Made by a program: the position numbers and the translations under genes. 64,000 nucleotides of DNA from Ancylobacter oerskovii. GTDB taxonomy: Bacteria; Pseudomonadota; Alphaproteobacteria; Rhizobiales; Xanthobacteraceae. This document shows positions 866 through 64,000 of this stretch, one piece after another. Below the pieces are notes generated by a model. The model had not been told where the DNA came from. It worked only from the letters and a program-made list of their open reading frames with translations, and did not search any database. The stretch lies in assembly GCF_018390555.1 (NCBI RefSeq), contig NZ_JAHBGB010000006.1:310001-374000 (forward strand), read 5' to 3'. Positions within the stretch are counted from its first letter, which is position 1, and every line of letters begins with the position of its first letter.

Positions 866-3530
<2,665 letters not shown>

Positions 3531-3541
<11 letters not shown>

Positions 3542-4730
3542 GCCGACGCCCCAGATCGCCGTGCCTGCCGTCTATATGCGCGGGGGCACCAGCCGGGCGA
3601 TCATCTTCCACGCGGCGGACCTTCCCGCGGATCCGGCGGCCCGCGACGCGATCTTCCTCGCCGCGCTCGGCAGCCCGGATCCGAACCGGCGCCAGCTGGA
3701 CGGGCTGGGCGGCGCGATCTCCTCGCTCTCCAAGATCGCCATCGTCGGCCCGTCGAGCCGGCCGGACGCGGATGTCGACTACACGTTCGGGCAGGTCGCC
3801 ATCGACGCCCCGCTGGTGCAATACAAGGGCAATTGCGGCAACATCTCCTCCGCGATCGGGCCTTTCGCGCTCGACGAAGGGCTGGTTGCGGCCGACGGCG
3901 ACAGCGCGACCGTTCGGATCCACAACACCAATACCGGCAAGATCATCGTCTCGCGCTTTCCGGTGAGCGGCGGCCAGGCCGCGGTGGATGGCGATTTCGA
4001 GCTGCAGGGCGTCGCCGGCAGGGGCGCGCCCATTCGTCTCTCCTTCCTGGAACCCGGTGGCGCCGCGACCGGCCGGCTGCTGCCGACCGGACGGGTGCGG
4101 GACGATCTCCTCGTCGAGGGCCTCGGGACATTGAGCGTGTCCATGGTCGATGCCGCCAACCCGGTGGTGTTCGTGGACGCCCGCTCGCTCGACATGACGG
4201 GCACGGAGCTGCCGGACGAGATAGAGGCACGGCCCGGGCTTCTCGCCCGGCTGGAAGCCATCCGTGCCGCCGCCGCCGTGGCCATGGGCATCGCGGCGAC
4301 CGAGGCCGAGGCCCGCACGCGCATCCGCAACCTGCCGCAGGTTGGTATCCTCGCCGCGCCGGTCGATACGCCGACGCTCAGCGGGAAGGTGCTGTCCGCG
4401 TCGTCCTTCCACATTCTGGCGCGCATGATCTCGGCCGGCCAGCCGCACAAGGCGTCGCCACTGACGGGAGCCATGTGCCTCGCCATCGCCATGCGACTGC
4501 CGGGCACCATCGCCGCCGAACTGGCACGCCTGCCCTCCGATCCCGACGCGGACCTGATCGTCGCGCATCCGTCCGGCCTGCTGCCGGTCGCCGCACGGCT
4601 GCGTGAGGACGGCGCGCCGCATGCCGAGGAGGCGGTCGTCTACCGGACCGCCCGCCGGCTGATGCAGGGCAGCGTGCTGGTGCCGCGCAAGCTGCTGGAG
4701 GCCCTGGAAAATGTATCGACAGGGAACTGA
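3531..4730 (+). CDS. PrpF-family (aconitate / 4-oxalomesaconate type) double-bond isomerase
   Basis: A 399-residue protein of the PrpF family, whose members (PrpF, GalD, methylitaconate isomerase, fungal aconitate isomerase Adi1) shift or flip a double bond in small unsaturated polycarboxylates without a cofactor. It shows the N-terminal family motif YMRGGTSRAIIF, the loop YKGNCGNISSAIGPFA around the catalytic cysteine, and a second family block near residues 300-320 (PHKASPLTGAMC). The start overlaps the aconitase stop by 11 bases and has AGGGAAA upstream, so the two are translationally coupled. Next to an AcnA-type aconitase and TctABC, the simplest reading is conversion of trans-aconitate or a related acid into cis-aconitate. 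This is inference; substrates within the family cannot be separated by eye. Confidence 0.85.
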
Positions 4731-5496: not shown

Positions 5497-5504
5497 TGTC
5501 GACA
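5497..5504. promoter_or_regulatory. Operator candidate 3 (TGTCGACA) upstream of tctC
   Basis: Perfect copy of the palindrome found before the aconitase gene, 18 bases after the regulator stop and upstream of the tct promoter. It is spaced 62 bases from the next copy, close to six helical turns. Confidence 0.55.
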
Positions 5505-5531
5505 TAATCGGCACAACAAACTTAGAATAAC

Positions 5532-5558
5532 TTGACATTGGCCTAATATGGCTAAAAA
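5532..5558 (+). promoter_or_regulatory. Putative sigma-70 promoter of the tctCBA operon
   Basis: A perfect TTGACA -35 hexamer (5532-5537) is followed 15 bases later by TAAAAA (5553-5558) as a weak -10. Operator copy 4 begins directly after the -10, as expected for a repressed promoter. The -10 assignment is uncertain because the spacer is short. Confidence 0.4.
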
Positions 5559-5566
5559 TGTCGACA
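5559..5566. promoter_or_regulatory. Operator candidate 4 (TGTCGACA) at the tct transcription start
   Basis: Fourth intergenic perfect copy of the palindrome, overlapping the expected transcription start of tctCBA and flanked by A/T on both sides like the other three. Binding here would directly occlude RNA polymerase. Confidence 0.55.
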
Positions 5567-5624
5567 ATAATGCGAGCCGCAGCAAGAGCTCGCACCCTCT
5601 GGAAACGTTCATCAGGAGAGTGTC

Positions 5625-6632
5625 ATGACCCGTTCCACGCGCTGGAAGGCGCCGGCGCCTTTCGCTTCGTTCGGACGCGCCATACGGCGCGGCATCGGAG
5701 GAGCCGTCCTCGTCGCGGCGGTCGGCTGCGCGGGCATGGCGCAGGCGCAGCAGGTCACCGTGACCATTCCTGCCGCTCCCGGCGGGGGCTGGGACAACAC
5801 GGCGCGCATGACGATGCAGACCCTGCAGAAGGAGAAGCTGGTCACCGGCGGCATCCAGTTCGTCAACAAGGGCGGCGGCGTGGGCATCATCGGGCTCACC
5901 GATTTCGTGCGCAACAACAAGGGCAACGACAACGGCCTGATGTTCATGGGCGTGATCATGCTCTCGAGCATCCTGACCAACCGCTCGGCCATCACCATGG
6001 ACGACGTGGCGCCGCTGGCGCGGCTGACACGCGAATACAACGCCGTCGCGGTGCCTGCGGATTCGCCGATCAAGACCTCCGCCGATCTCGTAGCCGAGCT
6101 CAAGAAGGATCCCGGCGCGTTCGCGGTCGGCGGGTCGGGCGTCGGCACCGTCGATCACCTGACCATGGCGCTGATCGCCAAGACCCAGGGAATTCCCGCC
6201 AACAAGTTGAATTTCATCGCTTTTAGCGGCGGCGAGATCGTGCCGGCACTGGTGGGCGGAAAGATCAAGGCGGCGGTCTCCGGCCTGTCCGAGCTCTATC
6301 CGCTGGCGAAGGCCGGGCGCATCCGCCTCGTGGCGGTGACGTCGGACAACCGCCTGCCGGGTGTGGATATCCCGACGCTGAAGGAAGCCGGGCTCGACGT
6401 TTCCGTGAGCAACTGGCGCGGCGTCGTCGGGGCGCCCGGCATGAGCGAGGCGGCCCGCAAGGAATGGATCGGCCGGTTCGAGACCATGGCCAAGTCGCCG
6501 GAATGGGCGGCGGCGCTGGAGAAGCAGGGCATGGAGAATGCCTATCTCGGCGGCGAGGCGTTCTCGGCCTTCATCGCGTCGGAAAACAAGAACTGGCAAG
6601 GGCTTCTGAAGGAAGCCGGCCTCGTCAACTGA
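5625..6632 (+). CDS. tctC: Tripartite tricarboxylate transporter, periplasmic substrate-binding protein (TctC)
   Basis: A 335-residue periplasmic receptor that hands a carboxylic acid to the TctAB membrane pair. It starts with a long signal peptide (arginine-rich n-region, hydrophobic GIGGAVLVAAVGCAG, likely cleavage after GMAQA). The mature part opens with the family signature TIPAAPGGGWDNTARM, where the loop closes over the ligand carboxylate, followed by FVNKGGGVGIIGL and the second-lobe segment AFSGGEIVPALVGGKIKAAVSG. The ATG at 5625 has AGGAGAG 6 bases upstream. It heads the tctCBA operon and follows the promoter and operators described. The ligand is probably a tricarboxylate given the aconitase and isomerase next door, but TctC proteins vary widely in ligand. 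Confidence 0.93.
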   Translation: MTRSTRWKAPAPFASFGRAIRRGIGGAVLVAAVGCAGMAQAQQVTVTIPAAPGGGWDNTARMTMQTLQKEKLVTGGIQFVNKGGGVGIIGLTDFVRNNKGNDNGLMFMGVIMLSSILTNRSAITMDDVAPLARLTREYNAVAVPADSPIKTSADLVAELKKDPGAFAVGGSGVGTVDHLTMALIAKTQGIPANKLNFIAFSGGEIVPALVGGKIKAAVSGLSELYPLAKAGRIRLVAVTSDNRLPGVDIPTLKEAGLDVSVSNWRGVVGAPGMSEAARKEWIGRFETMAKSPEWAAALEKQGMENAYLGGEAFSAFIASENKNWQGLLKEAGLVN

Positions 6633-6651
6633 CGACGCGGGAGACAGGGCG

Positions 6652-7152
6652 ATGAACGATCGCGTAGCGCCGCGGCCCTGGTGGGTGCCCGCAGGAGTGA
6701 TCGGCTTCGGGGCCGTCATGCTCTACGGGGCGACCCAGCTGGGACAGTCCGACGCCCATTCGGGCGTGGGGCCCGGCCTGTTCGTGACAATCATCGGCAT
6801 CGCCCTCATCCTGCTCGGGACGGCGCTCGGCGTGCAGGTCGCGCGGGGCGTCGCCTTCACCTCGACGGAGGGCGCCGACGCGTATGATGAGGTGGACGAT
6901 GAGGACAGAACTCATCGCGGGCCGCTGCTCCTCGCCATCGCCTCGCTGGCGGCGCCGCTGGTGCTGATGCAGGCCGCCGGCTTCCCGCTCACCGCCGCTG
7001 TGGTGTTCGCGGGCATCGCCCGTGCCTTCGGCTCGCGACGGCCAGTTGTCGACATCCTGACCGGCGCGGTGCTGGGCGGGGTGGCATGGTTCTTCTTCAA
7101 CTGGCTCGGCGTCAATCTCGGCCCGTTCCTGCCGTGGCTGACGGAGCGCTGA
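6652..7152 (+). CDS. tctB: Tripartite tricarboxylate transporter small membrane subunit (TctB)
   Basis: A 166-residue protein with four predicted membrane segments (about residues 9-27, 40-60, 88-110 and 130-160). Size and arrangement fit the small TctB subunit, which pairs with TctA in the inner membrane. A charged cytoplasmic stretch, [16 protein letters not shown], separates the two halves. It lies 19 bases after tctC and ends 2 bases before tctA, so the three are one operon. TctB sequences are poorly conserved, and the call rests on position plus topology. Confidence 0.88.
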
Positions 7153-7154
7153 CC

Positions 7155-8681
7155 ATGTCGACCCTCGACCTGCTGCTGCACGGCTTCGGCGTCGCCTTCC
7201 AGCCGGTCAACCTGCTAATGGCCTTCATCGGCAGCCTGCTCGGCACCGCCATCGGCGTGCTGCCGGGGATAGGGCCGGCGCTGACCATCGCCCTCTTGAT
7301 GCCGGTGACGACCTCGCTGGAGCCGGCCTCCGCCTTCATCATGTTCGCCGGCATCCTCTACGGGGCGATGTATGGCGGCTCGACCACCTCGATCCTGCTC
7401 AACACGCCGGGCGAGAGCGGGTCGATGATGACCGCGCTCGAGGGCAACCAGATGGCCCGGCGCGGGCGCGGTGCCGCCGCGCTGGCCACCGCCGCCATCG
7501 GCTCCTTCGTCGCCGGCACCATCGGCACGCTGGCGCTGTCCTTCGTGGCGCCGGCGGTTTCCGAACTCGCCTTCATCTTCGGGCCGGAGGACTATTTCGC
7601 GCTGATGGTGTTGTCCTTCACCACCATCTCGGTGGTGCTGGGCAATTCGCCGCTGCGCGGCGCCATCGCGGTGGCGGTCGGGCTCGGCCTCGGCGTGATC
7701 GGCATCGACGCCCAGACCGGGCAATCGCGCCTGACCTTCGGCAGCCTCGACCTGCTCGACGGCATTCCCTTCACCATCGTGCTGGTGTCGCTCTTCGCCG
7801 TGGGCGAGATCATCTATGTCGCCAGCCGCGGGCCGGAGCGCGATGGCGGCATCAACCCGCTGAGCGGCGGCATCTGGATGACCAGGGAGGACTGGAAGCG
7901 CTCCTGGAAGCCGTGGCTGCGTGGCACCGCGCTCGGCTTTCCCATCGGGGTGCTGCCGGCCGGCGGCTCGGAGATTCCGACCTTCCTGTCCTATGCGGTG
8001 GAGAAGCGCCTCTCGAAGCACCCGGAGGAGTTCGGCTCCGGCGCCATCGAGGGTGTTGCCGGCCCCGAGGCGGCGAACAATGCGGCGGCGGCCGGCATAT
8101 TGGTGCCGCTACTCACCCTCGGCCTGCCGACCTCGGCGACCTCGGCCATCCTGCTCAGTGCCTTCCAGGGCTACGGGCTGCAGCCGGGTCCGCTGCTGTT
8201 CGTGAACAATGCCGAACTGGTGTGGGGGCTGATCGCCTCGCTCTATATCGGCAATTTCATGCTGATCGTGCTCAACCTGCCGCTCGCCGGCATGTGGGTG
8301 CGGCTACTGATGATCCCTCGCCCGCAGCTCTATGCCGGCATCGTGATCTTCGCCCTGGTCGGCGTCTGGGGGCTTTCGACCTCGTGGTTCGACCTGCTCC
8401 TGATGTTCGCGATGGGCCTGCTCGGCTATGCGATGCGGCTCTACGACTTCCCGGCGGCGCCGGTGCTGATCGGGCTGATTCTCGGGCCGATGGCCGAGCA
8501 GCAGCTGCGCCGGGCGCTCGCCATCAGCCAGGGCGATCCGGTCGCGCTCGTCTCGACGCCGATCTCCGCCACGCTGCTCGGCCTCGCTTTGTGCATCGTG
8601 CTGCTGCCGCCGCTGCTGCGCCATCTCGCCCGGCGGCCCGCCGGCGGCGAGCGGCGCGCCGTGTCACGGCCGGCGCCCTGA
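7155..8681 (+). CDS. tctA: Tripartite tricarboxylate transporter large membrane subunit (TctA)
   Basis: A 508-residue integral membrane protein that forms the translocation path of the Tct symporter. It carries the family hallmark [21 protein letters not shown] near the N-terminus, [15 protein letters not shown] about residue 80, and [20 protein letters not shown] in the second half, which is the repeat of the first motif. About eleven to twelve hydrophobic segments follow. I chose the ATG at 7155, two bases after the tctB stop with GGAG upstream; an earlier in-frame start would overlap tctB and add residues foreign to the family. The operon appears to end here, before a convergent gene. Confidence 0.95.
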
Positions 8682-8723: not shown

Positions 8724-9587
8724 CTAGTGCGCCGACACGCGCCGTCGCGCCCTCGATGCGGCACCGTTGCGCAGTGCCCAGCGACCGACCGGGGTCGCCG
8801 CTCTCATCAGCGTCAAGGCACCGAACGAGCCGGGGCGCTCCTTTCCGGGGATCAGCTCACGCAGGGGATCCGGCATCAGCGCGACGCCGGCGCCCATCAC
8901 GAAACGGCGAAACAGGCCCAATGCGGGCGACGGGGTCGGCGCGGACGAGATCACCCGCAGCACCTCTCGCGTGCGCGCGTCGAAGCGCAGCTGCGGCGTC
9001 ATCTGCCGCAGATAGGCGTCCACCGCCGATGCGGTGACAGGCACGTCCGGCGCGCCCAGCATCCGCGCGACGATCGCCATCTCGCGGAAATAGCGGTCCT
9101 GCTCGGCCTCGGGCATTCCGGGATCGACGAAGGCGCGATGGGCCGACAGGAAGCCGGACGTCTCGGCGACGTGGATCCAGGTCAGCAGGGCGGGATCGCT
9201 GGCGCGGTAGCCCCTCCCCGCCGCATCGACACCTGCCACGCTCATGTGCCGCAGCCGCACGCGCTCGACGAGGGTCTCGGCGGTCGGCCGGGCGGCATAG
9301 GTCGTGCCGGCCACGAATTGCGCGGTCCGCGCCAGCCGCCCCATGACATCGGCCCTGAAATTCGAATGGTCCCACACGCCGGCTATGGCGAGGGGGTGCA
9401 GCATCTGGGTCATCAGGGCGGAAACGCCGCCGACGATCATCGGCACGAAATCGGCGTGAACCTTCCAGGCTACGGAACCGGGGCCGAACAGGCCGGGATC
9501 GCCCGGCGGCCGGTCGAAATCGATCACCCCCGCGCCGGTCACCCGCCGGATGTTGCGCTCGATCGCCTCGCGAATATGGATCACCAT
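8724..9587 (-). CDS. DUF2236 / MpaB-type oxygenase
   Basis: A 287-residue soluble protein of the DUF2236 family (fungal MpaB, bacterial latex-clearing protein Lcp), whose studied members are b-type heme oxygenases. Recognisable blocks are RPPGDPGLFGPGSVAWKVHAD, HPLAIAGVWDHSNFRADVMGR, and the central histidine segment VAETSGFLSAHRAFV. The start is uncertain: ATG at 9587 lies just inside the end of the EamA gene and begins where family similarity begins, while an in-frame GTG at 9611 would add eight residues. Both options overlap or abut the upstream transporter, so the pair is likely co-transcribed. The substrate is unknown. Confidence 0.82.
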   Translation of the reverse strand: MVIHIREAIERNIRRVTGAGVIDFDRPPGDPGLFGPGSVAWKVHADFVPMIVGGVSALMTQMLHPLAIAGVWDHSNFRADVMGRLARTAQFVAGTTYAARPTAETLVERVRLRHMSVAGVDAAGRGYRASDPALLTWIHVAETSGFLSAHRAFVDPGMPEAEQDRYFREMAIVARMLGAPDVPVTASAVDAYLRQMTPQLRFDARTREVLRVISSAPTPSPALGLFRRFVMGAGVALMPDPLRELIPGKERPGSFGALTLMRAATPVGRWALRNGAASRARRRVSAH

Positions 9588-9591
9588 TCCC

Positions 9592-10530
9592 TCACGAATA
9601 GTCCTGCGCACCCGCCCGGCCGGGGTCGAGGGGCTCGCGAACGCTCTTCCGGCCCGGCAGCGTCATGGCGATCACGCCGGCGAGGACGCAGCCGAGACCG
9701 ATCCACGCGGTCGAGGCCAATGTCTCGCCGAGGAAGACGATGCCGATCCCCACGCCGATGGGAACCCTGAGATAGGCTTGCGCCGTGGTTCCCACCGAGC
9801 CGAGCGTCTGTACCAGCCGGAAATAGATCACGAAGGCAAGCGCCGTCGAGAAGACCGACAAGGCGAGCAGCGCCAGGAGCGAGCCGGCGGCGGGCGCCAG
9901 CGTCCAGGGCCGATCGACCGCCAGGCTCACCGGCAGCAGCAGGGCCGCGCCGCATATGAGCGAGCCGGCCGCGGGCATCATCGGATCGAGGCCCTTGAAG
10001 CTCTTCCCGAAGATCGCCGCGCCGGCATAGCAGACGGTGGCGGCGACGACGGCGAGCTGCACCCACAGCGCATGCCCGAGCCCGTTCAACGCTTCGACCC
10101 CGATGATGAGGCAGGTTCCGGCGAGGCCCGCCGCCACGCCGAACAGCTTGCGCCCCGTCACCGGCTCGTGCCGGGTGACGAGGCCGGTCAGCAGGAAGGT
10201 GAAGATCGGCGTCGTGGAATTGAGGATCGCCGCCAGGCCCGCTTCGGTCGTCTGCTCCGCCCACGCGATCAGGGTGAAGGGCACGACGCTGTTGAGGCAA
10301 GCCTGGATCAGGAAGCGCCGCCATGTCGCCCGGTCGCGCGGCAGGCGCAGGCCGCGCCCATGAATCACCGCCGTCAGCAGCGCGCCCGCGATCAGCGTTC
10401 GGGCGGCGATCAGCGTGACGGGAGGAATGGTCTCCACGCCGATCTTGATGAATGTGTAGGACGCTCCCCACAGCGTCGACAGCGTCAGCAGCAGCGCCAT
10501 TTCCCTCGCCATGTTCGTCTTGTCGGTCAT
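9592..10530 (-). CDS. EamA / DMT-superfamily transporter
   Basis: A 312-residue inner-membrane protein with ten predicted helices in two five-helix EamA repeats, the usual plan for drug/metabolite exporters of the RhaT/YdcZ/RarD superfamily. The first repeat begins with LSTLWGASYTFIKIGVETIPPVTLIAAR, and the second has the matching GKSFKGLDPMMPAAGSLICGAALL segment. A polar tail closes the protein. It is divergent from an ArsR-type regulator 127 bases away, which may control it, and its 3' end overlaps or abuts the DUF2236 gene. The substrate cannot be assigned. Confidence 0.9.
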   Translation of the reverse strand: MTDKTNMAREMALLLTLSTLWGASYTFIKIGVETIPPVTLIAARTLIAGALLTAVIHGRGLRLPRDRATWRRFLIQACLNSVVPFTLIAWAEQTTEAGLAAILNSTTPIFTFLLTGLVTRHEPVTGRKLFGVAAGLAGTCLIIGVEALNGLGHALWVQLAVVAATVCYAGAAIFGKSFKGLDPMMPAAGSLICGAALLLPVSLAVDRPWTLAPAAGSLLALLALSVFSTALAFVIYFRLVQTLGSVGTTAQAYLRVPIGVGIGIVFLGETLASTAWIGLGCVLAGVIAMTLPGRKSVREPLDPGRAGAQDYS

Positions 10531-54973: not shown

Positions 54974-57034
54974 ATGGCACAGGAAGACAGCGACAAGTTC
55001 CGGGTTCGGCCCGGCCGGATCCGCCAGCGCGGCACGCGAGGAAGTAGCTTTGCGAAGGTGCCGTTCCGGCGCCAAGTCGAGATTGCCGTGCGCGAGGCCG
55101 GCGGGTGGTCAGGCCGGAAGGGAGGCGGACGTTACAACGCCCGCGGTCGCGGGGTCCGGGCGGCGGGTACGCTCTCCAGTGTCGATCGTGGCTGGAAGGC
55201 CGATGCTGGTGGACGACACCGCTCGCGCCGCGTGGTGGTCAAGGCGCGGGTGGTGAAGCTCGGCGTCGTCCGTGGCCGCGGCGGGAGGAAGACGGTCGGC
55301 GCTTCCGCCAAGGCGGTCGACGCTCATCTGCGCTATCTCCAGCGCGATGGCGTGACGCCCGACCGGCAGAAGGGTCGCTGCTACTCGGCGTCCGAGGATG
55401 AGGTCGACGGCAAGGCCTTCCTGGAGCGCGGCCGCGAGGACCGCCACCAGTTCCGCTTCATCGTCGCGCCGGAAGATGGGCTGGAGCTCGGCGACCTCAA
55501 AGGCTTCACCCGAGAGCTCATGGGACAGATGGAGAGCGATCTCGGGACGAAGCTCGACTGGATCGCGGTCGATCATCACAACACCGGTCATCCCCACACC
55601 CATGTGCTGGTGCGTGGCGTCACCGATGAAGGACGCGCTCTCACCATAGCAGGCGACTACATCGCCCATGGCATACGCCATAGAGCCAGCGACATCGTCA
55701 CCCGCGAACTCGGCCCGCAGAGCGAGATCGAGCTTCAGCAGAAGCTCGTCTCCGAGGTGGGAGCTGAGCGGCTTACCCGACTGGATCGCCTCTTGATCCA
55801 GGAGCAGGAGCGCGAGGGCTTTGTCGATCTGTTCACCAGCGGCAATCGGCTGATCCGCGAGAACCGCGACGTGCTCATCGGCCGGCTGCGCAAGCTGGAA
55901 GCCTATGGCCTCGCCCGAGAGGATTTTGCCGGAGAGTGGATGGTCTCGTCACGCACGCAGGCCACGCTCATTGAGATCGAAGCGCAGAACGATGTCATGC
56001 GCTCCATACATCAGGCACTCAAAGACAATGGCATTGCTGATGAGCGTGGCAGCAGCCAGTATCGTCGCCATGGGCAGGAGCCGGACCAGACGCTGACCGG
56101 CCGGGTGCTGGGCAAGGGGCTGGCCGGCGACGGCCTCAGCGAGGCCAGCTATCTCGTGATTGATGGCGTCGACGCCCGCGTCCACCATGTCGAGTTCCCG
56201 GACGCCAGCAGGCTCGACGAGCTCCAACGCGGCATGATCGTCGAGGTGACGCCGCCGATCACCCAGCCGCGTGTTGTCGATCTCAACATCCAGCAGAACG
56301 CAGATCAGGATGGCATCTACAGTCCGGGCACCCATCTCGCCCGCATCCGCGACCGCTTCGCCGAACAGGGCAAGGACCCCGAGGCCTATATCCGCTCGCA
56401 TATCCGCCGGCTGGAGGCGCTCCGGCGCGCCGGCCATGTCGAGCGCGTTCATGCCGAGCACTGGACCATTCCGAAGGATCTCCCAGAGCGCGGGCTGGCA
56501 TACGACCGCTCGCTTACCGGAGAAGGCCCGGGCATCAAGATCGCCTCGCAGCTCTCGCTCGACCGCCAGATCAGCGCCGACGGCGCCACGTGGCTCGACC
56601 GGGAGCTCGTCGCGCCGACACCGCGCTCACCAAATGCCTTTGGCAGAGACGTCACCCTCGCTCTCGAACAGCGCCGAGCCACGCTGGTCGACATGGGCTT
56701 CGCCACCCGCGGCCCCGGCGGCGGCATCGAGGCGCCCGATCTTATCAACCGTCTCCAGCGTCGAGAGGTCGAGCGCGTTGCTGCCGACCTCGCCAAGTCC
56801 ACCGGTCTGGCCTACCGCCCGTCTGGCCGTGGCGAGTATGTCTCGGGCACTGTCACCCGCCAGCTTCAGCTGATCTCCGGGCGCTTCGCTATGCTGGAGG
56901 ACGGCCTCGGCTTCCAGCTCGTGCCCTGGCAACCGGTTCTCGACAAGCAGATCGGCCGTCACATCTCAGGCGTCATGCGCGGGGATGGCGGGATCGAGTG
57001 GAGCATCGGTCGGCAGAGGGGGTTGGGGTTGTGA
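54974..57034 (+). CDS. VirD2/TraI-like relaxase (DUF3363 family)
   Basis: A 686-residue conjugative relaxase that would nick DNA at oriT and lead the transferred strand. The first 110 residues are very basic (Gly/Arg-rich). The nuclease domain holds the three-His metal motif GHPHTHVLV (His206, 208, 210) after DWIAVDHHNTGH, and an upstream Tyr-containing segment (LRYLQRDGVTP) as a candidate nucleophile. The C-terminal half carries the DUF3363 region (ASYLVIDGVDARVHHVEF and RHISGVMRGDGGIEW). It is intact, but the usual partners (traG coupling protein, mating-pair genes, traF) are absent nearby, so the element is either mobilisable or cut apart. The start ATG 54974 has no strong binding site. 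Confidence 0.9.
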   Translation: MAQEDSDKFRVRPGRIRQRGTRGSSFAKVPFRRQVEIAVREAGGWSGRKGGGRYNARGRGVRAAGTLSSVDRGWKADAGGRHRSRRVVVKARVVKLGVVRGRGGRKTVGASAKAVDAHLRYLQRDGVTPDRQKGRCYSASEDEVDGKAFLERGREDRHQFRFIVAPEDGLELGDLKGFTRELMGQMESDLGTKLDWIAVDHHNTGHPHTHVLVRGVTDEGRALTIAGDYIAHGIRHRASDIVTRELGPQSEIELQQKLVSEVGAERLTRLDRLLIQEQEREGFVDLFTSGNRLIRENRDVLIGRLRKLEAYGLAREDFAGEWMVSSRTQATLIEIEAQNDVMRSIHQALKDNGIADERGSSQYRRHGQEPDQTLTGRVLGKGLAGDGLSEASYLVIDGVDARVHHVEFPDASRLDELQRGMIVEVTPPITQPRVVDLNIQQNADQDGIYSPGTHLARIRDRFAEQGKDPEAYIRSHIRRLEALRRAGHVERVHAEHWTIPKDLPERGLAYDRSLTGEGPGIKIASQLSLDRQISADGATWLDRELVAPTPRSPNAFGRDVTLALEQRRATLVDMGFATRGPGGGIEAPDLINRLQRREVERVAADLAKSTGLAYRPSGRGEYVSGTVTRQLQLISGRFAMLEDGLGFQLVPWQPVLDKQIGRHISGVMRGDGGIEWSIGRQRGLGL

Positions 57035-57579: not shown

Positions 57580-58878
57580 GTGCTACGCTCAATCGAGTCA
57601 TCATTTTGTATTCTGAGAGCAGCTCGTGAAATGTTCCTGAAATCGATCCTAGGCGAACCTCTCGACTCGCAAATGGAGGGCACCGTATTAACCGGCGCTC
57701 CACCCGCACCCGGACCGATTTCTAAGAAGCATTTCACCGTCGTCGGCATGTTCGCTGGCATCGGGGGGCTCGAATGCGGTTTTCATCAACACGGTCATCG
57801 GAGCGTCCTGCTCTGTGACGCAGACGATCGCGCCCGTGCGGTCCTCGCCAATCGCTTCCCCAAAGTGCAGATAAGCGACGATGTTCGCACTGTGGGCAAG
57901 CTGCCTGACTGCGATGTCTTGACCGCGGGATTCCCCTGCCAAGATCTCAGCCAGGTTGGTCGCAGGAAGGGAATCTCGGGGCCAAACTCGGGCCTGATCG
58001 ACGTACTGCTTGAGCTTCTCCGGAAGGCTAGGCCGGGGCCTGCATGGCTGGTTCTTGAGAACGTTCCATTCATGCTCAGCCTCGATGGTGGACGCGCCAT
58101 CGATCGGATCGCAACCGAGCTTGAGGCGATGGGTTTCATGTGGGCCTATCGCACCGTGGATGCGCGCTCCTTCGGCCTGCCGCAGCGACGCCGGCGGGTG
58201 GTGATCCTCGCCTCTCGCGTAAATGATCCACGGCCGGCCCTGCTCGGAATCGACGCCCGTGCGCCGTTGATCGACAAACGCGGGGTACATGCGTGTGGCT
58301 TTTACTGGACGGAGGGCAACACCGGCATTGGATGGGCCATCGATGCGACACCTCCGCTCAAAGGTGGGTCATCACTGCACATCCCATCGCCGCCGGCCAT
58401 CTGGTTCCCGAGGCGTCGATTGATCGGCGTGCCCTCAATCGAGGATGCGGAACGCCTACAGGGGTTCGATCCAAAATGGACGGAGGTTTGCGGCGAGGAT
58501 GCTCGGCAGGCTCGCCAACGCTGGCGTTTGGTCGGCAATGCCGTAAGCGTACCCTTCGCCGCGTGGATCGCGGAGCGACTGCAGCACGCGGGCGAGTATC
58601 ATAGCGACGACGAACCCTTGCTCACCGGGACCCGCTGGCCGAGTGCCGGTTGGGGATGCGAGGGCCAGCGAGGCCGATCCACGGTGTCGGAATGGCCGGT
58701 CGCCCGCCCACAGCAGCACCTCGCCTCATTCCTATCTGGAGTTGTGAAACCGTTGTCCCGCAAGGCTGCGTCCGGCTTCCTTTCCCGGCTTGAACGAAGC
58801 ACCTTGCGATACGAGGAGGCTTTTCGCCTCGATCTCCATCACCATATTGCAGTGCATGACGCGGCCGAAGCGTCTTGA
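57580..58878 (+). CDS. dcm: DNA (cytosine-5-)-methyltransferase
   Basis: A 432-residue C5 methyltransferase. Motif I is FAGIGGLECGF (58-68), the catalytic loop is GFPCQDLSQVG (Cys120), motif VI is ENVP (Glu160), motif VIII is QRRRRVVILAS, and motifs IX-X lie in RLQGFDPKW and RLVGNAVSVPFAAWI. A C-terminal extension of about 90 residues follows motif X. GTG 57580 has GGTGGA upstream; in-frame ATGs at 57631 and 57673 are weaker. It overlaps vsr by 23 bases. It would mark a short sequence with 5-methylcytosine, protecting it from a linked nuclease; candidate nucleases are the HNH gene and the helicase module that follow on the other strand. Confidence 0.93.
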   Translation: MLRSIESSFCILRAAREMFLKSILGEPLDSQMEGTVLTGAPPAPGPISKKHFTVVGMFAGIGGLECGFHQHGHRSVLLCDADDRARAVLANRFPKVQISDDVRTVGKLPDCDVLTAGFPCQDLSQVGRRKGISGPNSGLIDVLLELLRKARPGPAWLVLENVPFMLSLDGGRAIDRIATELEAMGFMWAYRTVDARSFGLPQRRRRVVILASRVNDPRPALLGIDARAPLIDKRGVHACGFYWTEGNTGIGWAIDATPPLKGGSSLHIPSPPAIWFPRRRLIGVPSIEDAERLQGFDPKWTEVCGEDARQARQRWRLVGNAVSVPFAAWIAERLQHAGEYHSDDEPLLTGTRWPSAGWGCEGQRGRSTVSEWPVARPQQHLASFLSGVVKPLSRKAASGFLSRLERSTLRYEEAFRLDLHHHIAVHDAAEAS

Positions 58879-59305
58879 AGCCGTCGCACCGGCGACCTCT
58901 AAACGGATGGCAGCGACAACGGCACGCGACAATTCACGCGAGCGCGCCCTGCGTTCCGAGCTGCACCGCCGAGGTCTGCGGTTCCGCCTACATCAGCGCT
59001 TACTGACAGGCTCGCGTCGTACCGTCGATATCGTTTTCCTGGGTGCGCGGACGGCCGTCCTTCTCGATGGATGCTTCTGGCATGGTTGCCCGACGCACGG
59101 CACTTGGCCGAAAAATAATGCGGTGTGGTGGCGCGAGAAGATCGAGGCCAATATTGCCCGCGATCGAGACACCGACCGCAAATTGATTGAAACGGGTTGG
59201 AAGGTGATGCGCATCTGGGAGCACGAACCGATCGCGGCCGCGGCCGACCGGATCGAAGCCTCGGTGAGGGCGGCCAGCGGTCGTATCGAGGGGAAGCGCG
59301 TCTGA
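58856..59305 (+). CDS. vsr: Very short patch repair endonuclease (Vsr)
   Basis: A 149-residue Vsr nuclease that nicks next to T:G mismatches left by deamination of 5-methylcytosine. The active Asp lies in TVDIVFLG (Asp58), the zinc/catalytic block is DGCFWHGCPTHGTWP (about 71-85), and KVMRIWEHE closes the core. ATG 58856 overlaps the methyltransferase end by 23 bases, so the pair is translationally linked, as usual for dcm-vsr. An in-frame ATG at 58907 would still keep the core. Confidence 0.92.
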   Translation: MTRPKRLEAVAPATSKRMAATTARDNSRERALRSELHRRGLRFRLHQRLLTGSRRTVDIVFLGARTAVLLDGCFWHGCPTHGTWPKNNAVWWREKIEANIARDRDTDRKLIETGWKVMRIWEHEPIAAAADRIEASVRAASGRIEGKRV

Positions 59306-59308
59306 GCT

Positions 59309-60325
59309 TCAAGAGCGGCTCAGATGCGTTGGCTTTCCGGATCGCGCATACCACAGGAGGCTATCGCACTTCTGGGTCACGGTATGAAAACCGTGCTGCG
59401 ATGGCCGGATATAATCATGACTTTCGGCCCTCATCGGACGTGGCGGTGGGCGCTGGATCATATGAAGACCAAGCTTCACCGCGTCTGCGTCCTTCAATTG
59501 CGATGAGAACAGGGAGTGCCCGTCCTCCTCGAATCCAATAAGGCCGTGATCGAATAGGAAGTCGGCGTGCGGGGCCAGCATAAGGCCGTTGAACCCGTCG
59601 AGCCGTTCGGCTGCCGTTCCGCAGGCGCGCCATGGCTTGATATGGCTGGGGATCAGTAGGCTGGGCTTATCGACTCCAGTGATGCGGCAGCTCGGCTCGA
59701 CTTCGAGGACACGCTTGCGGAAGAGGCCTTGCCCGCGACGTGCGCGGGTCAATTGTTCGCGAACCGTGGCGTCAAGTGAGGCGTCATCGAGGATGCTACG
59801 CTCGACTAGGTCGTCGAGGGTCGTCGCGAAATCCGCGTTCGTGGTGCTCGGTACGGCTAGAAGATCGAGGTGAGGAAGACGCGCAGCTTCTAGGATTAGA
59901 TCGATGACACCTCGATCGACCTCGGCGAGATACGCTTTCTGGTTGCCATTGCCGCTGAGAGGTTGGATCGGGGAATGAGTGGGTGGTAGCAATGGTGCCA
60001 GGCGAGACAGCAAGTCCTTTGGTCGTACAGCCAATTCGGTGTCGAGCCATTGCACAGGCAACAGCCATCCGACCGCGCTCCAATACGCGCCGATCCTGCC
60101 AAATTCCTCGGGTTTCGGCGCACTGATCGCGAAGTCCGCGACGATGCCAATTCCTCCGACGCGTCCCTCCGCGTAGGAGAGGACGATATCGCCTGGTGAT
60201 GCGGCGCGCATGTTGTCGTAGAATCGGCTACGAGCACCATTGGCCTCGGTCACGGGCGACCAGAGATAGCCGCCCGCGATCTCCTGGCGCATCGTCTGCG
60301 CGTGGTTGACCCACCAGTATCGCAC
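59309..60325 (-). CDS. HNH endonuclease with EVE/PUA-like N-terminal domain
   Basis: A 338-residue predicted restriction nuclease. The N-terminus (MRYWWVNHAQTMRQEIAGGYLWSP, with NGARSRFYDNMRAASPGDIV) resembles the EVE/PUA-like base-sensing domain. The C-terminal HNH_2 domain has CRITGVDKPSLLIPSHIKPWRA and GLMLAPHADFLFDHGLIGF, with the HNH residues spread across these. GTG 60325 begins at the family start. It ends 3 bases from vsr on the opposite strand. An EVE-like reader plus HNH suggests cutting of modified (or unmodified) cytosine sites, complementing the adjacent methyltransferase. The remnant at 53053 is from a related HNH family. Confidence 0.88.
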   Translation of the reverse strand: MRYWWVNHAQTMRQEIAGGYLWSPVTEANGARSRFYDNMRAASPGDIVLSYAEGRVGGIGIVADFAISAPKPEEFGRIGAYWSAVGWLLPVQWLDTELAVRPKDLLSRLAPLLPPTHSPIQPLSGNGNQKAYLAEVDRGVIDLILEAARLPHLDLLAVPSTTNADFATTLDDLVERSILDDASLDATVREQLTRARRGQGLFRKRVLEVEPSCRITGVDKPSLLIPSHIKPWRACGTAAERLDGFNGLMLAPHADFLFDHGLIGFEEDGHSLFSSQLKDADAVKLGLHMIQRPPPRPMRAESHDYIRPSQHGFHTVTQKCDSLLWYARSGKPTHLSRS

Positions 60326-60514
60326 CGCGCGATCATGTCTTCTTCGTTCGCGATTTCAAAGCGCCTAATGCAGACGCCTTGGTTCTTCGACATCCGCAAT
60401 CAGGGTGAGCGGTCGACGATCGAGCGGATATGCCCCCTTCGCAACGGCCAACCAAGGCTCTCAAGCTCCGCGGGCTCCAGCCCGAATGCCGTGGTTTCAC
60501 AACCGTTCGCGCGA

Positions 60515-63500
60515 TCAATCCAACCTCACAGCGAAGAACGTGCCATTGGGTCCGTTCTCGACCACGAAGGGTGATTGAACGGCGGCGAGCTGCATCTGTA
60601 GTGATGCCAGCGGATCGAAGGCGACCACCCCCTGGGTGGTCCATGAGCCGACTCCTTGATCGAAGAATATTGTGCCGGCCCCCCCGCTGGTTCGAAAGTC
60701 GAGCCGGCGCCTGTGCGGCAGGTGCTGGTGCAGACGCAACTTGGCCGACGGCGCGACCATCGCCAACATGTGGCGGAGGACCGCGTCACGATCAACGACG
60801 TCGGGCCAATCGTCCCTCACCGTACGACCAGCTCGCGGTCGACGACCGTCGCGACGTTGGACCAGCGTGTCCACGTTGATGATCGTATCGACGTTCGCGA
60901 ATCCGGCGAGAAACTCGGTAACGAGCCGCGCGACCAGGGGGCTGAAAAGATAACGATCCGAGTAGGTGAGTTCGAGACAGGGCTCCGCGAAGACGGCCTT
61001 CAGGGCATCGTTCCGCATCATCATTGCGCGTCTGAGCCGCTGCCCGAAATCGGTCGCCGGTCCGTCAATCTCCTGTGACACTTCGAAAATGGTCTCGTGC
61101 ACGCGCTCGATCAACAGCGCACGAGAATCGATAGGAACGGCGTCCTGCTCCGAAGGATCGACCGGGCCGCGCACGACGGGCGCGGCCGAGGTGCTCGCCC
61201 AGGTCGCGGCGATGCGATAGGCTGCGGCGTCGAACGATCGCCAGGCCGTCACACGATCGCCACTTCTCGTGACGGAGAGAAGATCACGTTCGGCGCTGGA
61301 CACGCCGCGCAGGACTGCGCGCGCGCGCTCGATCCAGAGCGCGATGCGCCGCCGGGTCACGGCGTCGGCGCCGGTCACGGCGTCTGCATCGACCGAGACG
61401 ATTACGGTTCTTCCACGCGCGCCCCATCTTTCGACGATCGGCGCCATTGGCCATGCATCGAAATCCCATTCCTGCGGGCTGCCGTGAAGGACGACGGTCA
61501 ATTCGGTCTTCGGATCCGCGGACATGCGTTCGTTGAGGGCGTCGGCGAGCGGCGCGGCTTCGTACACCGTCGCATCTCCGAACAGGCTATGCTGATCCGG
61601 AAGGGCGATTCGATCGATCGTAGCGGCGAGCAGCGCCGCGGCGCCTGCGCGATCCGTCGCGTCGGCTACGTGTTGGGCGTCCGGCGCCAGGACACAGCCG
61701 GGACAGGCGCGTTGGGCGTCGGGATCGCCGCACCGTCCTGGGCGCGCGCAGTCCAGATGGGCCGCCGCCTCGCGCAACAGCCCCACCGGATCGCGCGAAA
61801 TGGTCGTCGAGAAACCGGCGCCACCACTCGCCCGATCAAAGACGACGGCGCTGAAGTTGTCGCGGCCGCGAACGTTCGGCGCAGCCGGTGCCGCGAAGCC
61901 CATTTCGTCGGCATCGATACCGAGGCGATCCGCTACCGCCTCACGCAGCGCGAGCGCGAGGGTGAGTGCGATGTCCCTGGATCGACACTCGTAAAGCTGA
62001 ATCTCGCACAGATCGGTTCGGATCTCGTGGCCGAGCATGAGATTGCGCGTCACGGCATAAGGCGCGAACTCAGGCGCGCCGCTGCAGGTGACCTGATCGA
62101 TCGCAGTGGGTGCGCCTCGCAGCGGTCTGTGCAGGGACAGTCCCGGTCCCCCGGAGGCCTCGGGCTCCGACTCGGCGCGGCCGCAGTGGAGGCACAAGGC
62201 ATAACCATGGCCATAGTCGCCGGGATTGAACCAAAAGACCGTCCCATCGGCGCTCGCCCGAACCCGTCCGACATCGGGGTCGGGTAGCGAACGCCAAGGC
62301 GCCTCTCGCGCGGACACCCAGGGATCGACGACCTTGCTACTCCCGACGTCCGATGGATCGTCGTGCACGTTGAACCGGACGTCGACGGAGAAGCCGCTCG
62401 GACTGAGATACCGTCTGGCTTCCAGGTTGCTCGATCCGCATTCGATACATGGCGTCTCCTCGACGGCGGAAGGCTTCGACGCGAGCGCGCCGCAGGTCCT
62501 ACAGGACCACATGGTGCGAAGGCTCTGGATCTCGCGCAGGCCGGCTTCCGAGACCGGTCGCTGCCAGTTGAGCGTCACGCCGGATGATTCTCGAACCACG
62601 CCGTCCACCACGATGCCGCGTCCCGGCGCGTATTCGTATATGCCGACCTCGCGAGAGCGCGAGGGATAGCCGCGGCCGAAACTGCGCTCCTGGGCCTCCT
62701 CGCCGGCGTCGGCCGCACGCTGCTTCGCCGCCTTCTCGCCAGCGGTTTCGGTGACGAATTGGACGACATCCGTGGGAAATCCGTAGGACGGAAGGAATCC
62801 CCGTCCCGCTAACTCGCCGAGCAGATATCCGCGTTCGAGGCGCCGACGCTGGAGCTCGCGAGCCTTGTTGACCGCTGCGAGTTCGACGTCCCCGGTCGGC
62901 GTGGCAGGCACCTCGGCCGCGAGCGCCTCCCATTCGGAGTGCATCTCCGCGGAAATGCGGCCGATTCGACCGCGGAGAACCTCGATCAGATCCCAACCCG
63001 GCGCGACCGGTGTTCCTGCGAGGAGCGTGGACAATTGCTCGTTCGTCCCGGGGTCGCTGGGTACGGTGTCGAGCCACGCCAGGAAGGCGATGGCCGGTAC
63101 CTGCTCTGAGTGCGGGATTGTATCGTTCGAGAGTCCGAAGAATGTACCGTTGGTGAGCTTGTGCAGCTCGGCGCCCAAGCCGGCGAGGAATCTGGCTAGC
63201 AGCAGGGCGGCCGCGTGGCGCGTCGCGATCGTCGGGCTCTCAAGGCTAACCCGCGGCGTCTTGACCTGGCGCAAGAGATAGTCAAGCGGATTGGCGATCG
63301 TCATACGGTCAAGTGGGCGGTCCTTGCACAGCGTCAATCCCACCGCGATGGGCTGCCGCTGTCGCCCTGCCCGACCGACGCGCTGCCGATAGTTGGCGAT
63401 CTCTGGCGGCGCGTTGCTGTTCAGGACGGCTTCGATGCTGCCGATGTCGACGCCCATTTCCATCGTTGTTGAGCAGCCGAGAACGTTGATCTGTCCGGCC

Positions 63501-64000
63501 TTGAACTCACGCTCATACCGTCGAAGCGTCGTGCTGGCCTGTTGGGCCGAATGCTCGGCGGCGCGAAGCCAGGGCGAGAATTTCGCTGCTCTGTCGTGCT
63601 GATCACCCCATCGCCCGGCATCCCGCAATTCTCTCACGATCGGATCGTCGGCGAGCCAGCCGTCCAACGTGTCCTCGTCCACCGCGAGCCCGGCCGGATC
63701 CCTGCGCCAGGGATAGTGCAATGTCGGCATGGTGATCGGGGTGGCCGTCGGATGGACTCCATCAACGTCATAAGGGCTCAATCCGCGCAATGTCGTATCG
63801 AGGACGCGGCGCGTCGTTGGACACCAGAATGCCTTTTCGACTTTTGCTACGGAGAGGGCTCCAAGTTTCAGGCGATAGCCATTTTCGGTCTGCGTCATGA
63901 AGCGCAGGAGCGTGCGCCACGCATCGCCGAGGACCTCCGCCACCTTGTCCTTGTCCGAACGATCCTCTGGATCGAGACCAACGGCCTGGAAGAGCAACCG
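60515..64000 (-). CDS. Very large DEAD/DEAH-type helicase with DUF1998/MZB zinc domain (partial)
   Basis: The C-terminal 1161 residues of a superfamily 2 helicase whose N-terminus lies beyond the window. Helicase motif V (GCSTTMEMGVDIG, about residues 174-186) and motif VI (YRQRVGRAGRQ, about 203-213) mark the second RecA domain. A four-Cys zinc ribbon (SCRTCG ... CIECGSS) and CLHCGR follow, then a DUF1998/MrfA-type zinc cluster (CARPGRCG ... ACPGCVL). A further 330 residues with CLELTYSDRYLFSPLVARL form an unfamiliar tail. DrmA and DrmB of DISARM together, and MrfA/YprA helicases, share parts of this layout. It lies 189 bases from the HNH gene on the same strand. It is likely the motor of the defence block. 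Confidence 0.9.
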   Translation of the reverse strand, partial: RLLFQAVGLDPEDRSDKDKVAEVLGDAWRTLLRFMTQTENGYRLKLGALSVAKVEKAFWCPTTRRVLDTTLRGLSPYDVDGVHPTATPITMPTLHYPWRRDPAGLAVDEDTLDGWLADDPIVRELRDAGRWGDQHDRAAKFSPWLRAAEHSAQQASTTLRRYEREFKAGQINVLGCSTTMEMGVDIGSIEAVLNSNAPPEIANYRQRVGRAGRQRQPIAVGLTLCKDRPLDRMTIANPLDYLLRQVKTPRVSLESPTIATRHAAALLLARFLAGLGAELHKLTNGTFFGLSNDTIPHSEQVPAIAFLAWLDTVPSDPGTNEQLSTLLAGTPVAPGWDLIEVLRGRIGRISAEMHSEWEALAAEVPATPTGDVELAAVNKARELQRRRLERGYLLGELAGRGFLPSYGFPTDVVQFVTETAGEKAAKQRAADAGEEAQERSFGRGYPSRSREVGIYEYAPGRGIVVDGVVRESSGVTLNWQRPVSEAGLREIQSLRTMWSCRTCGALASKPSAVEETPCIECGSSNLEARRYLSPSGFSVDVRFNVHDDPSDVGSSKVVDPWVSAREAPWRSLPDPDVGRVRASADGTVFWFNPGDYGHGYALCLHCGRAESEPEASGGPGLSLHRPLRGAPTAIDQVTCSGAPEFAPYAVTRNLMLGHEIRTDLCEIQLYECRSRDIALTLALALREAVADRLGIDADEMGFAAPAAPNVRGRDNFSAVVFDRASGGAGFSTTISRDPVGLLREAAAHLDCARPGRCGDPDAQRACPGCVLAPDAQHVADATDRAGAAALLAATIDRIALPDQHSLFGDATVYEAAPLADALNERMSADPKTELTVVLHGSPQEWDFDAWPMAPIVERWGARGRTVIVSVDADAVTGADAVTRRRIALWIERARAVLRGVSSAERDLLSVTRSGDRVTAWRSFDAAAYRIAATWASTSAAPVVRGPVDPSEQDAVPIDSRALLIERVHETIFEVSQEIDGPATDFGQRLRRAMMMRNDALKAVFAEPCLELTYSDRYLFSPLVARLVTEFLAGFANVDTIINVDTLVQRRDGRRPRAGRTVRDDWPDVVDRDAVLRHMLAMVAPSAKLRLHQHLPHRRRLDFRTSGGAGTIFFDQGVGSWTTQGVVAFDPLASLQMQLAAVQSPFVVENGPNGTFFAVRLD

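Follow-up and report, generated by a model that had tools for sequence, protein, structure and literature searches.

Druantia type III genes beside a methylase, Vsr and EVE-HNH nuclease in Ancylobacter oerskovii

To understand a block of putative defence genes of Ancylobacter oerskovii, a stretch of 64,000 nucleotides (the window; G000:C43:310001-374000) was analyzed together with DNA beyond its right edge, as the contig of 554445 bases continues for ~180 kb past the window end. In this block, a dcm-like cytosine-5 (C5) DNA methylase gene and vsr on the forward strand meet the genes of an HNH protein and of a very large helicase on the reverse strand. With a probability of about 0.55, we read the locus from its sequence as a Druantia type III core joined to a methylase-Vsr-EVE-HNH cassette, which would be aimed at phages with modified cytosines and would form a two-layer defence on a probably mobile island at a tRNA-Ser gene. 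The meeting of four genes at one point, two on each strand, which a preliminary description of this DNA had noted, was confirmed by the coordinates, with 3 bases between the ends of vsr and the HNH gene.

By homology, the helicase and its neighbour are the DruE-DruH pair of Druantia type III, a named system. The window edge falls inside the helicase gene, and extension past position 64000, which had been proposed before, completed its N terminus and then reached druH, a serine recombinase gene and tRNA-Ser. In PADLOC searches the helicase matched DruE3 (PDLC00037) with 1928.6 bits (residues 39-2053, profile 6-2033 of 2055), whereas DruE1 (463.8), DruE2 (314.4), DpdJ (84.8) and DrmA (at most 36.7) scored far lower among the best 25 of 32 families listed. 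Since this score is accompanied by DruH next door, the helicase matches a named system, and the earlier idea of a new DISARM- or Dpd-like helicase system is not supported by these scores. DEAD (78.2 bits), Helicase_C (40.6 bits) and PF09369, the Zn-binding domain of MrfA (32.5 bits), were all detected in one chain, so that the helicase and the DUF1998-like zinc domain do share a polypeptide as first described. The structural homologue of DruE is PDB 9tu7 (846.1 bits), and the C-terminal 408 residues align with residues 1686-2067 of that structure (75.2 bits). Counted from the first ATG, DruE comprises 2072 aa. Met36, which overlaps the druH stop as ATGA and agrees with the start of the relative from S. 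mexicanum, is a more likely start. The two genes lie on the same strand and, with this stop/start overlap, form a putative druH-druE operon as in Druantia III, and DruH itself matched DruH3, the YjiT family and PDB 9tud (Table 1).

According to a preprint, DruH probably senses the infection and shows nuclease activity in its dimeric form, and DruE works as a helicase dimer, which is loaded at 3' tails and carries one inactive and one active PLD domain (PMC13192584); the same domain plan of DruE is given in a second preprint (PMC12458937). Two further candidates for the window locus were considered. Druantia II was ruled out, as DruE3 scored far above DruE2 and no DruF or DruG was among the matches listed for the seven proteins scanned, and ARMADA was set aside in view of the C5 type of the methylase and the DruE scores of the helicase, with no ARMADA-named protein among the matches listed.

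Homology supports the assignment of the HNH protein as an EVE-HNH, a predicted modified-cytosine nuclease, in agreement with the previous call of an EVE-like/HNH nuclease. The protein is ~40% identical to VcaM4I (PDB 6yex) over residues 2-281 of 338 (241.3 bits, E 1.7e-70), and its predicted structure, which is of moderate confidence (mean pLDDT, a per-residue confidence score, of 71.9), retrieved 6yex as the top PDB match in Foldseek (E 1.3e-24). All named pocket, wedge and catalytic residues, with roles taken from the VcaM4I study (PMC7897488), are kept (Q10, T11, E15, W22, S23, P24, W82, Q129 and Y132; H228, N246, D255 and D259), and one residue, K130, is inserted after the wedge glutamine relative to VcaM4I. 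The gene is convergent with vsr and lies ~190 bp downstream of druE on the same strand. VcaM4I depends on 5-methylcytosine (5mC) or 5-hydroxymethylcytosine (5hmC), cleaves 5hmC DNA more rapidly than 5mC DNA and also restricts phage T4gt (PMC7897488). Because enzymes of this type are described as orphans without accompanying methylases (PMC7897488), an EVE-HNH beside a methylase is odd.

Dcm and Vsr are likewise supported by homology as what their sequences indicate, a C5 methylase and a T:G mismatch endonuclease. PCQ and GNAV motifs were read by eye in Dcm. Because the match to the methylase domain starts only at residue 52, the true start may lie downstream. The 5' part of vsr overlaps the 3' end of dcm. 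From the presence of Vsr we infer that host DNA carries 5mC in the long term, and an EVE-HNH in the same cell must therefore spare host 5mC.

Relatives of the EVE-HNH were collected by sequence and not by context. They comprised 17 proteins in GTDB genomes and 2 in viral contigs. Plasmids gave 75 records, and the 7 best were inspected. Besides the own genome, a search of 385 genomes of the class gave 6 relatives, one of which has the coordinates of L017 and was counted as that genome, and a search of 398 genomes of the phylum gave 22, with matches confined to the HNH part in 15 cases. Broken or interrupted (L018, L055), partial (L020, L211, L213, L214) and distant (L212) proteins, loci repeating a genome already included and HNH-domain-only matches were left out of a tree of 31 rows. 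In this tree the window protein falls inside a clade of 11 rows (support 100/98), all of which stand beside a helicase system: nine beside Druantia II (eroded in L053), one beside a trio of genes with a superfamily 1 (SF1) helicase (L004) and one, the window, beside Druantia III. Within ±10 kb, DruE was found in 10/11 rows (the eleventh, L004, has Dcm-Vsr), Vsr in 8/11 and a C5 methylase in 4/11. When the long Druantia II operons were read further upstream, a C5 methylase was found in all 11 rows, in seven of them only beyond 10 kb. The other ten rows of a wider 21-row clade (97/95) include two with the SF1 trio, one with Druantia II, two with a methylase only and five where nothing was seen. 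In the ten rows outside this wider clade, DruE, Vsr or a C5 methylase was not detected (0/10) in ±10 kb at most; since these rows were read to 10 kb only, the contrast in DruE is the fair one. Direct adjacency of these genes was seen in many rows of the clade, and the excluded L055 also stands beside Druantia II. The orientation varies: in L005, L006 and L008-L010 the HNH gene and druE converge, in L007 and L014 the HNH gene lies upstream of the operon, and in the window it follows druE on the same strand.

Two observations were made among these neighbours. The SF1 trio of L004 (11762-15551) encodes proteins of 349, 466 and 478 aa, the last an SF1-type helicase (AAA_11/AAA_30), and is convergent with Vsr-Dcm; it also occurs in L011 (4996-8980), in L174 (3-3237) and in the viral contigs L077 and L078, with hosts from the Pseudomonadota and an Acidobacteriota metagenome-assembled genome. 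Its first gene has by eye the look of a RecB/Cas4-type nuclease. Against PADLOC the trio gave no system match beyond weak helicase matches, and it may be a so far undescribed defence system. L020 harbors, near an EVE-HNH truncated at the contig end, one open frame of ~600 aa (5499-7361) with matches to the C5 methylase as well as to the Vsr model, perhaps a natural methylase-Vsr fusion.

Six loci hold the HNH, Vsr and a Dcm of the type found in the window (P0003), namely the window, L004, L007, L011, L014 and L016 (the latter with a second contig of its genome), and cover Druantia III, Druantia II and the SF1 trio. Across them the pairwise identities of HNH and Dcm were correlated with a Mantel r of 0.90 (8/720 permutations as high), those of HNH and Vsr with 0.88 (3/720) and those of Dcm and Vsr with 0.91 (4/720). 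DruE is 72% identical between L006 and L056, where the HNHs share 51%, and 43% identical between L005 and L006, where the HNHs share 74%, so that DruE and HNH cannot share one history. The DruE proteins of types III and II are only 24-27% identical. We read the co-divergence in the six loci as a candidate Dcm-Vsr-EVE-HNH cassette moving between helicase cores. HNHs 68-78% identical to that of the window (L005, L006, L008, L009, L010) accompany methylases only 20-29% identical to the window Dcm; the HNH thus stands elsewhere beside very different methylases, yet it co-diverges with the P0003-type Dcm in six loci. A tentative extension, which we hold as possible but doubtful, is that the three genes are a portable writer/cutter cassette that deliberately pairs a methylase with a methyl-sensing nuclease and combines with different helicase defences (Druantia II, Druantia III and the SF1 trio). 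The mark of the writer would then set or gate the cutter, and loss of the mark or its replacement by a phage would trigger cutting. If true, this would overturn the orphan rule for modification-dependent nucleases, and host 5mC would be a licence and not a target.

Several results weigh against the reading of a Druantia III core with a functionally joined cassette. The rows of the tree are few and related and thus not independent, the stretches of three outside rows (L019, L059, L210) are each below 9 kb in all, the excluded L018, with a 77% identical but broken HNH, lacks such neighbours, and the six loci of the Mantel comparison were picked for holding all three genes. Eleven Druantia III loci were compared (the window, L052, L180-L183 and L228-L232; six of the 28 plasmid records with a DruE match and four other near-full-length DruE3 matches of the class, besides the window). 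A C5 methylase was absent from the stretch examined in nine of these loci, the exceptions being the window and L052, and a full EVE-HNH was missing from the stretches of all but the window (10/11). The preliminary claim that the parts belong together is supported in that near relatives of the HNH recur beside systems with a helicase and a C5 methylase. Four Druantia II loci obtained independently of the HNH, from methylase or DruE2 searches (L158 with L234, L163, L178 and L179), also lacked an EVE-HNH in the stretch examined, as did the stretches around Dcm relatives, which were searched for separately, in 9/9 plasmids, in 4/4 other genomes of the class and in the best 6 of 80 viral loci. These Dcm relatives are all at most 66% identical to the window Dcm, the nearest being L078 (66%) and L076 (60%), whose stretches end close by. 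Because Druantia III, Druantia II and Dcm-relative loci occur without it, the EVE-HNH is accessory rather than core in both Druantia types, and Dcm-Vsr pairs exist in its absence too. At the level of the protein, F132 of VcaM4I, which was altered in one double mutant of the published study (PMC7897488), is alanine in the window protein. Moreover, binding of 5mC and 5hmC by VcaM4I shows little discrimination (PMC7897488), and coexistence with Dcm is therefore a real problem for a nuclease that has to spare the host.

The closest DruE, 71% identical, was found in S. mexicanum (L052), where an own Dcm-Vsr (Dcm 44% identical) lies downstream together with a 280-aa protein and no EVE-HNH. The set of Dcm-Vsr and the 280-aa protein also occurs without an intact Druantia in L157 and L166, and in all three loci seen the protein is encoded convergently with Dcm-Vsr (L052 22863-23705, L157 11557-12399 and L166 11118-11963, all on the reverse strand). 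The L052 and L157 copies gave no match in Pfam; an ExK stretch read by eye suggests a restriction enzyme. In L157, which stems from R. phaseoli N841, DruE3 is reduced to its last 130 residues (9509-9898, 54% identical) beside dcm-vsr; the Druantia III of this locus is eroded, whereas the methylase cassette adjoining it is intact. The Druantia III locus L180 harbors a 316-aa HNH_2 protein (3095-4042) that matches the window EVE-HNH in the HNH part only (44% over 124 aa) and may carry a sensor domain of another kind. DruH is absent from the short contig of L183.

In the preferred reading of a Druantia III core with an added cassette, DruH would sense the infection and DruE, a helicase of the YprA family with predicted PLD nuclease domains at its C terminus, would, by a mechanism adopted from published homologues, load on 3' single-stranded replication intermediates and degrade phage DNA. 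Dcm would methylate host sites and Vsr would repair the T:G mismatches left by deaminated 5mC, while the EVE-HNH would flip modified cytosines and cut DNA rich in them, most likely phage DNA of the 5hmC type. The two layers would be complementary, as cytosine-replacing phages would meet the EVE-HNH and the remaining phages DruHE. Sparing of host 5mC might be due to a preference for 5hmC or for dense modification, which is the simplest option, to sequence context or to control of the nuclease. That 5hmC can be discriminated from 5mC follows from CMoRE, a different enzyme and a GIY-YIG nuclease, which reportedly cuts 5hmC and glucosylated 5hmC (5ghmC) and not 5mC (PMC12923530). Pocket changes that could explain tolerance of host 5mC were sought by comparing 15 linked with 15 unlinked EVE-HNH rows (L015 was left out), and the window protein keeps every named pocket residue; one linked row, L016, deviates at two of them (K10, A23). 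K130, E27, S33, D64, Q191 and R205 mark the linked rows, K130 being also present in 4/15 unlinked ones, and these markers may reflect descent only.

Four other explanations were weighed. An epigenetic standoff as in PcaRCI/PcaRCII, in which the methylase keeps the EVE-HNH gene silent or in check and loss of methylation frees the nuclease as a guard or addiction device, would fit the co-divergence of HNH and Dcm in six loci and has a precedent in a methylase that silences a 5mC-dependent HNH nuclease through promoter methylation (PMC8989522). However, no regulatory site was found at the window locus, where a single promoter-like match before the HNH gene is within chance (1 found against 0.7 expected over the region), and the published pairing sets a mobile system against a resident gene rather than joining the two in a shared cassette; this explanation appears unlikely. 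We give somewhat less credit to an ordinary type II restriction-modification system with Vsr, in which the HNH would cut unmethylated sites that Dcm protects. The convergent layout of methylase-Vsr and nuclease, the co-divergence of all three proteins and the analogous set of Dcm-Vsr with a convergent 280-aa protein in S. mexicanum, seen also without an intact Druantia, speak for such a system. Yet the protein is an EVE-HNH of the VcaM4I type and carries the named pocket for modified bases, and the pairing of HNHs of 68-78% identity with methylases of 20-29% identity would hardly be expected of a cognate pair and lowers the likelihood of a plain cognate restriction enzyme.

An equally improbable alternative is mere clustering in a defence island of neighbours without a joint function. 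It agrees with the absence of the cassette from most Druantia III loci examined and of the EVE-HNH from most Dcm relatives examined, and is opposed by the 11/11 pattern among the intact rows of one clade, by the frequent direct adjacency and by the discordance of HNH and DruE between L006 and L056, which together suggest repeated association and not one old accident. Finally, the preliminary description had considered a methylation-guided attack coupled to the helicase, in which helicase and methylase would open or mark the DNA before the HNH cuts it. Although the HNH, a C5 methylase and three kinds of helicase systems are recurrently adjacent, the long-term host methylation implied by Vsr would make methyl-directed cutting suicidal, DruE appears by homology to carry its own C-terminal nuclease region, and between helicase partners as distant as DruE III and DruE II no shared interface would be expected. 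We consider this coupling very improbable.

The block is probably a defence island at tRNA-Ser and cargo of a mobile element. Beyond druH, the 3' end of a serine recombinase gene crosses tRNA-Ser, and an RlxS-like relaxase with DUF3363, which is probably part of the mobile element carrying the block, is encoded upstream of dcm (Table 1); the block therefore looks like mobile-element cargo at this tRNA gene. Large defence islands with such helicases are often found in elements integrated at tRNA genes (PMC12458937). A repeat of the tRNA-Ser 3' end was sought in the window with up to three mismatches and gave no match. A search by 13-mers in the window and 20 kb leftward gave one 15-base match that was judged to be chance, and the left end of the element was not found there. 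The right flank is common to this locus and to G479, a genome of the same genus. The G479 DNA across tRNA-Ser had no match in the window and the 20 kb to its left except for one 121-base piece, and one 20-kb stretch of it, compared with the complete own genome, matched weakly at three short places. Thus, the DNA on one side of the same tRNA-Ser (L002 18208-18297; G479:C1:322783-322873) differs between two genomes of the genus, and because of this difference the tRNA gene may be an insertion hot spot.

Table 1. Features of the locus; L002 is the stretch read past the window edge, in which position ~12628 equals window-equivalent ~66628.
Feature	Position	Strand	Evidence or remark
RlxS-like relaxase with DUF3363	54974..57034	+	DUF3363 368.8 bits; NF041267 607.6 bits, below its cutoff of 850
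dcm-like cytosine-5 DNA methyltransferase (P0003, 432 aa)	57580..58878	+	PF00145 147.8 bits; PADLOC MTase_II PDLC03324 413.7 bits
vsr, very-short-patch T:G mismatch endonuclease	~58859..59305	+	TIGR00632 105.4 bits (cutoff 97.85); PF03852 47.9 bits
EVE-HNH, predicted modification-dependent nuclease (P0005, 338 aa), GTG start	59309..60325	-	HNH_2 35.2 bits; VcaM4I 6yex 241.3 bits
druE, C-terminal 1161 residues inside window	60515..64000	-	gene start L002 ~12628
druH, 1086 aa	L002 12625-15885	-	PADLOC DruH3 203.6 bits; NCBIfam YjiT_fam 286.6 bits (cutoff 150); PDB 9tud 87.1 bits
serine recombinase	L002 16606-18498	+	Resolvase 103.7, Recombinase 57.4, Zn_ribbon_recom 57.1 bits
tRNA-Ser	L002 18208-18297		crossed by 3' end of serine recombinase gene

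As to whether the set already matches a named system, this is the case for the helicase, which belongs to Druantia III. The helicase part is already known, and the remaining interest lies in the pairing of methylase and EVE-HNH, that is, in the puzzle that a nuclease whose relatives cut 5mC and 5hmC DNA recurs beside 5mC methylases. Either the EVE-HNHs found here separate 5hmC from 5mC far better than VcaM4I, which would be a useful property for a reagent and would make the two-layer defence a clean one, or there is mutual regulation of methylase and nuclease. In the literature searched, which was mostly without subscription papers, no paper contained both Druantia and EVE-HNH, and no report of an association of EVE-HNH, Druantia and methylase was found; as evidence of novelty this is weak. 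The general proximity of Druantia III to type IV systems has been noted before (PMC13192584).

Compared with known systems, the locus shares a helicase, an MrfA-type Zn domain and a methylase with DISARM, but helicase and Zn domain lie in one chain instead of in a separate DrmA and DrmB, DrmA scored at most 36.7 bits and no DrmC was among the matches listed for the seven proteins scanned. Druantia II (DruM-DruF-DruG-DruE), the usual company of this EVE-HNH clade (9/11 rows), has its own C5 methylase; the window instead has DruE3 and DruH and no DruF or DruG among the same matches. With Druantia III (DruH-DruE; 9tu7, 9tud) the locus shares both genes, their order, their overlap and near-full-length homology of DruE, and it differs by the Dcm-Vsr-EVE-HNH cassette; 9 of the 11 Druantia III loci examined are without a C5 methylase in the stretch covered. 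The nuclease resembles VcaM4I (6yex) over residues 2-281 of 338, with ~40% identity and the named pocket and catalytic residues, and differs by the K130 insertion, by alanine in place of F132 and chiefly by the neighbouring methylase. In contrast to the orphan EVE-HNH nucleases, a C5 methylase lies next door here and near all 11 rows of the clade. As in PcaRCI/PcaRCII of Pectobacterium (PMC8989522), a methylase and an HNH nuclease, there 5mC-dependent, are present in one genome; there they belong to a mobile system and a resident gene in conflict, whereas here they are neighbouring genes that co-diverge across six loci.

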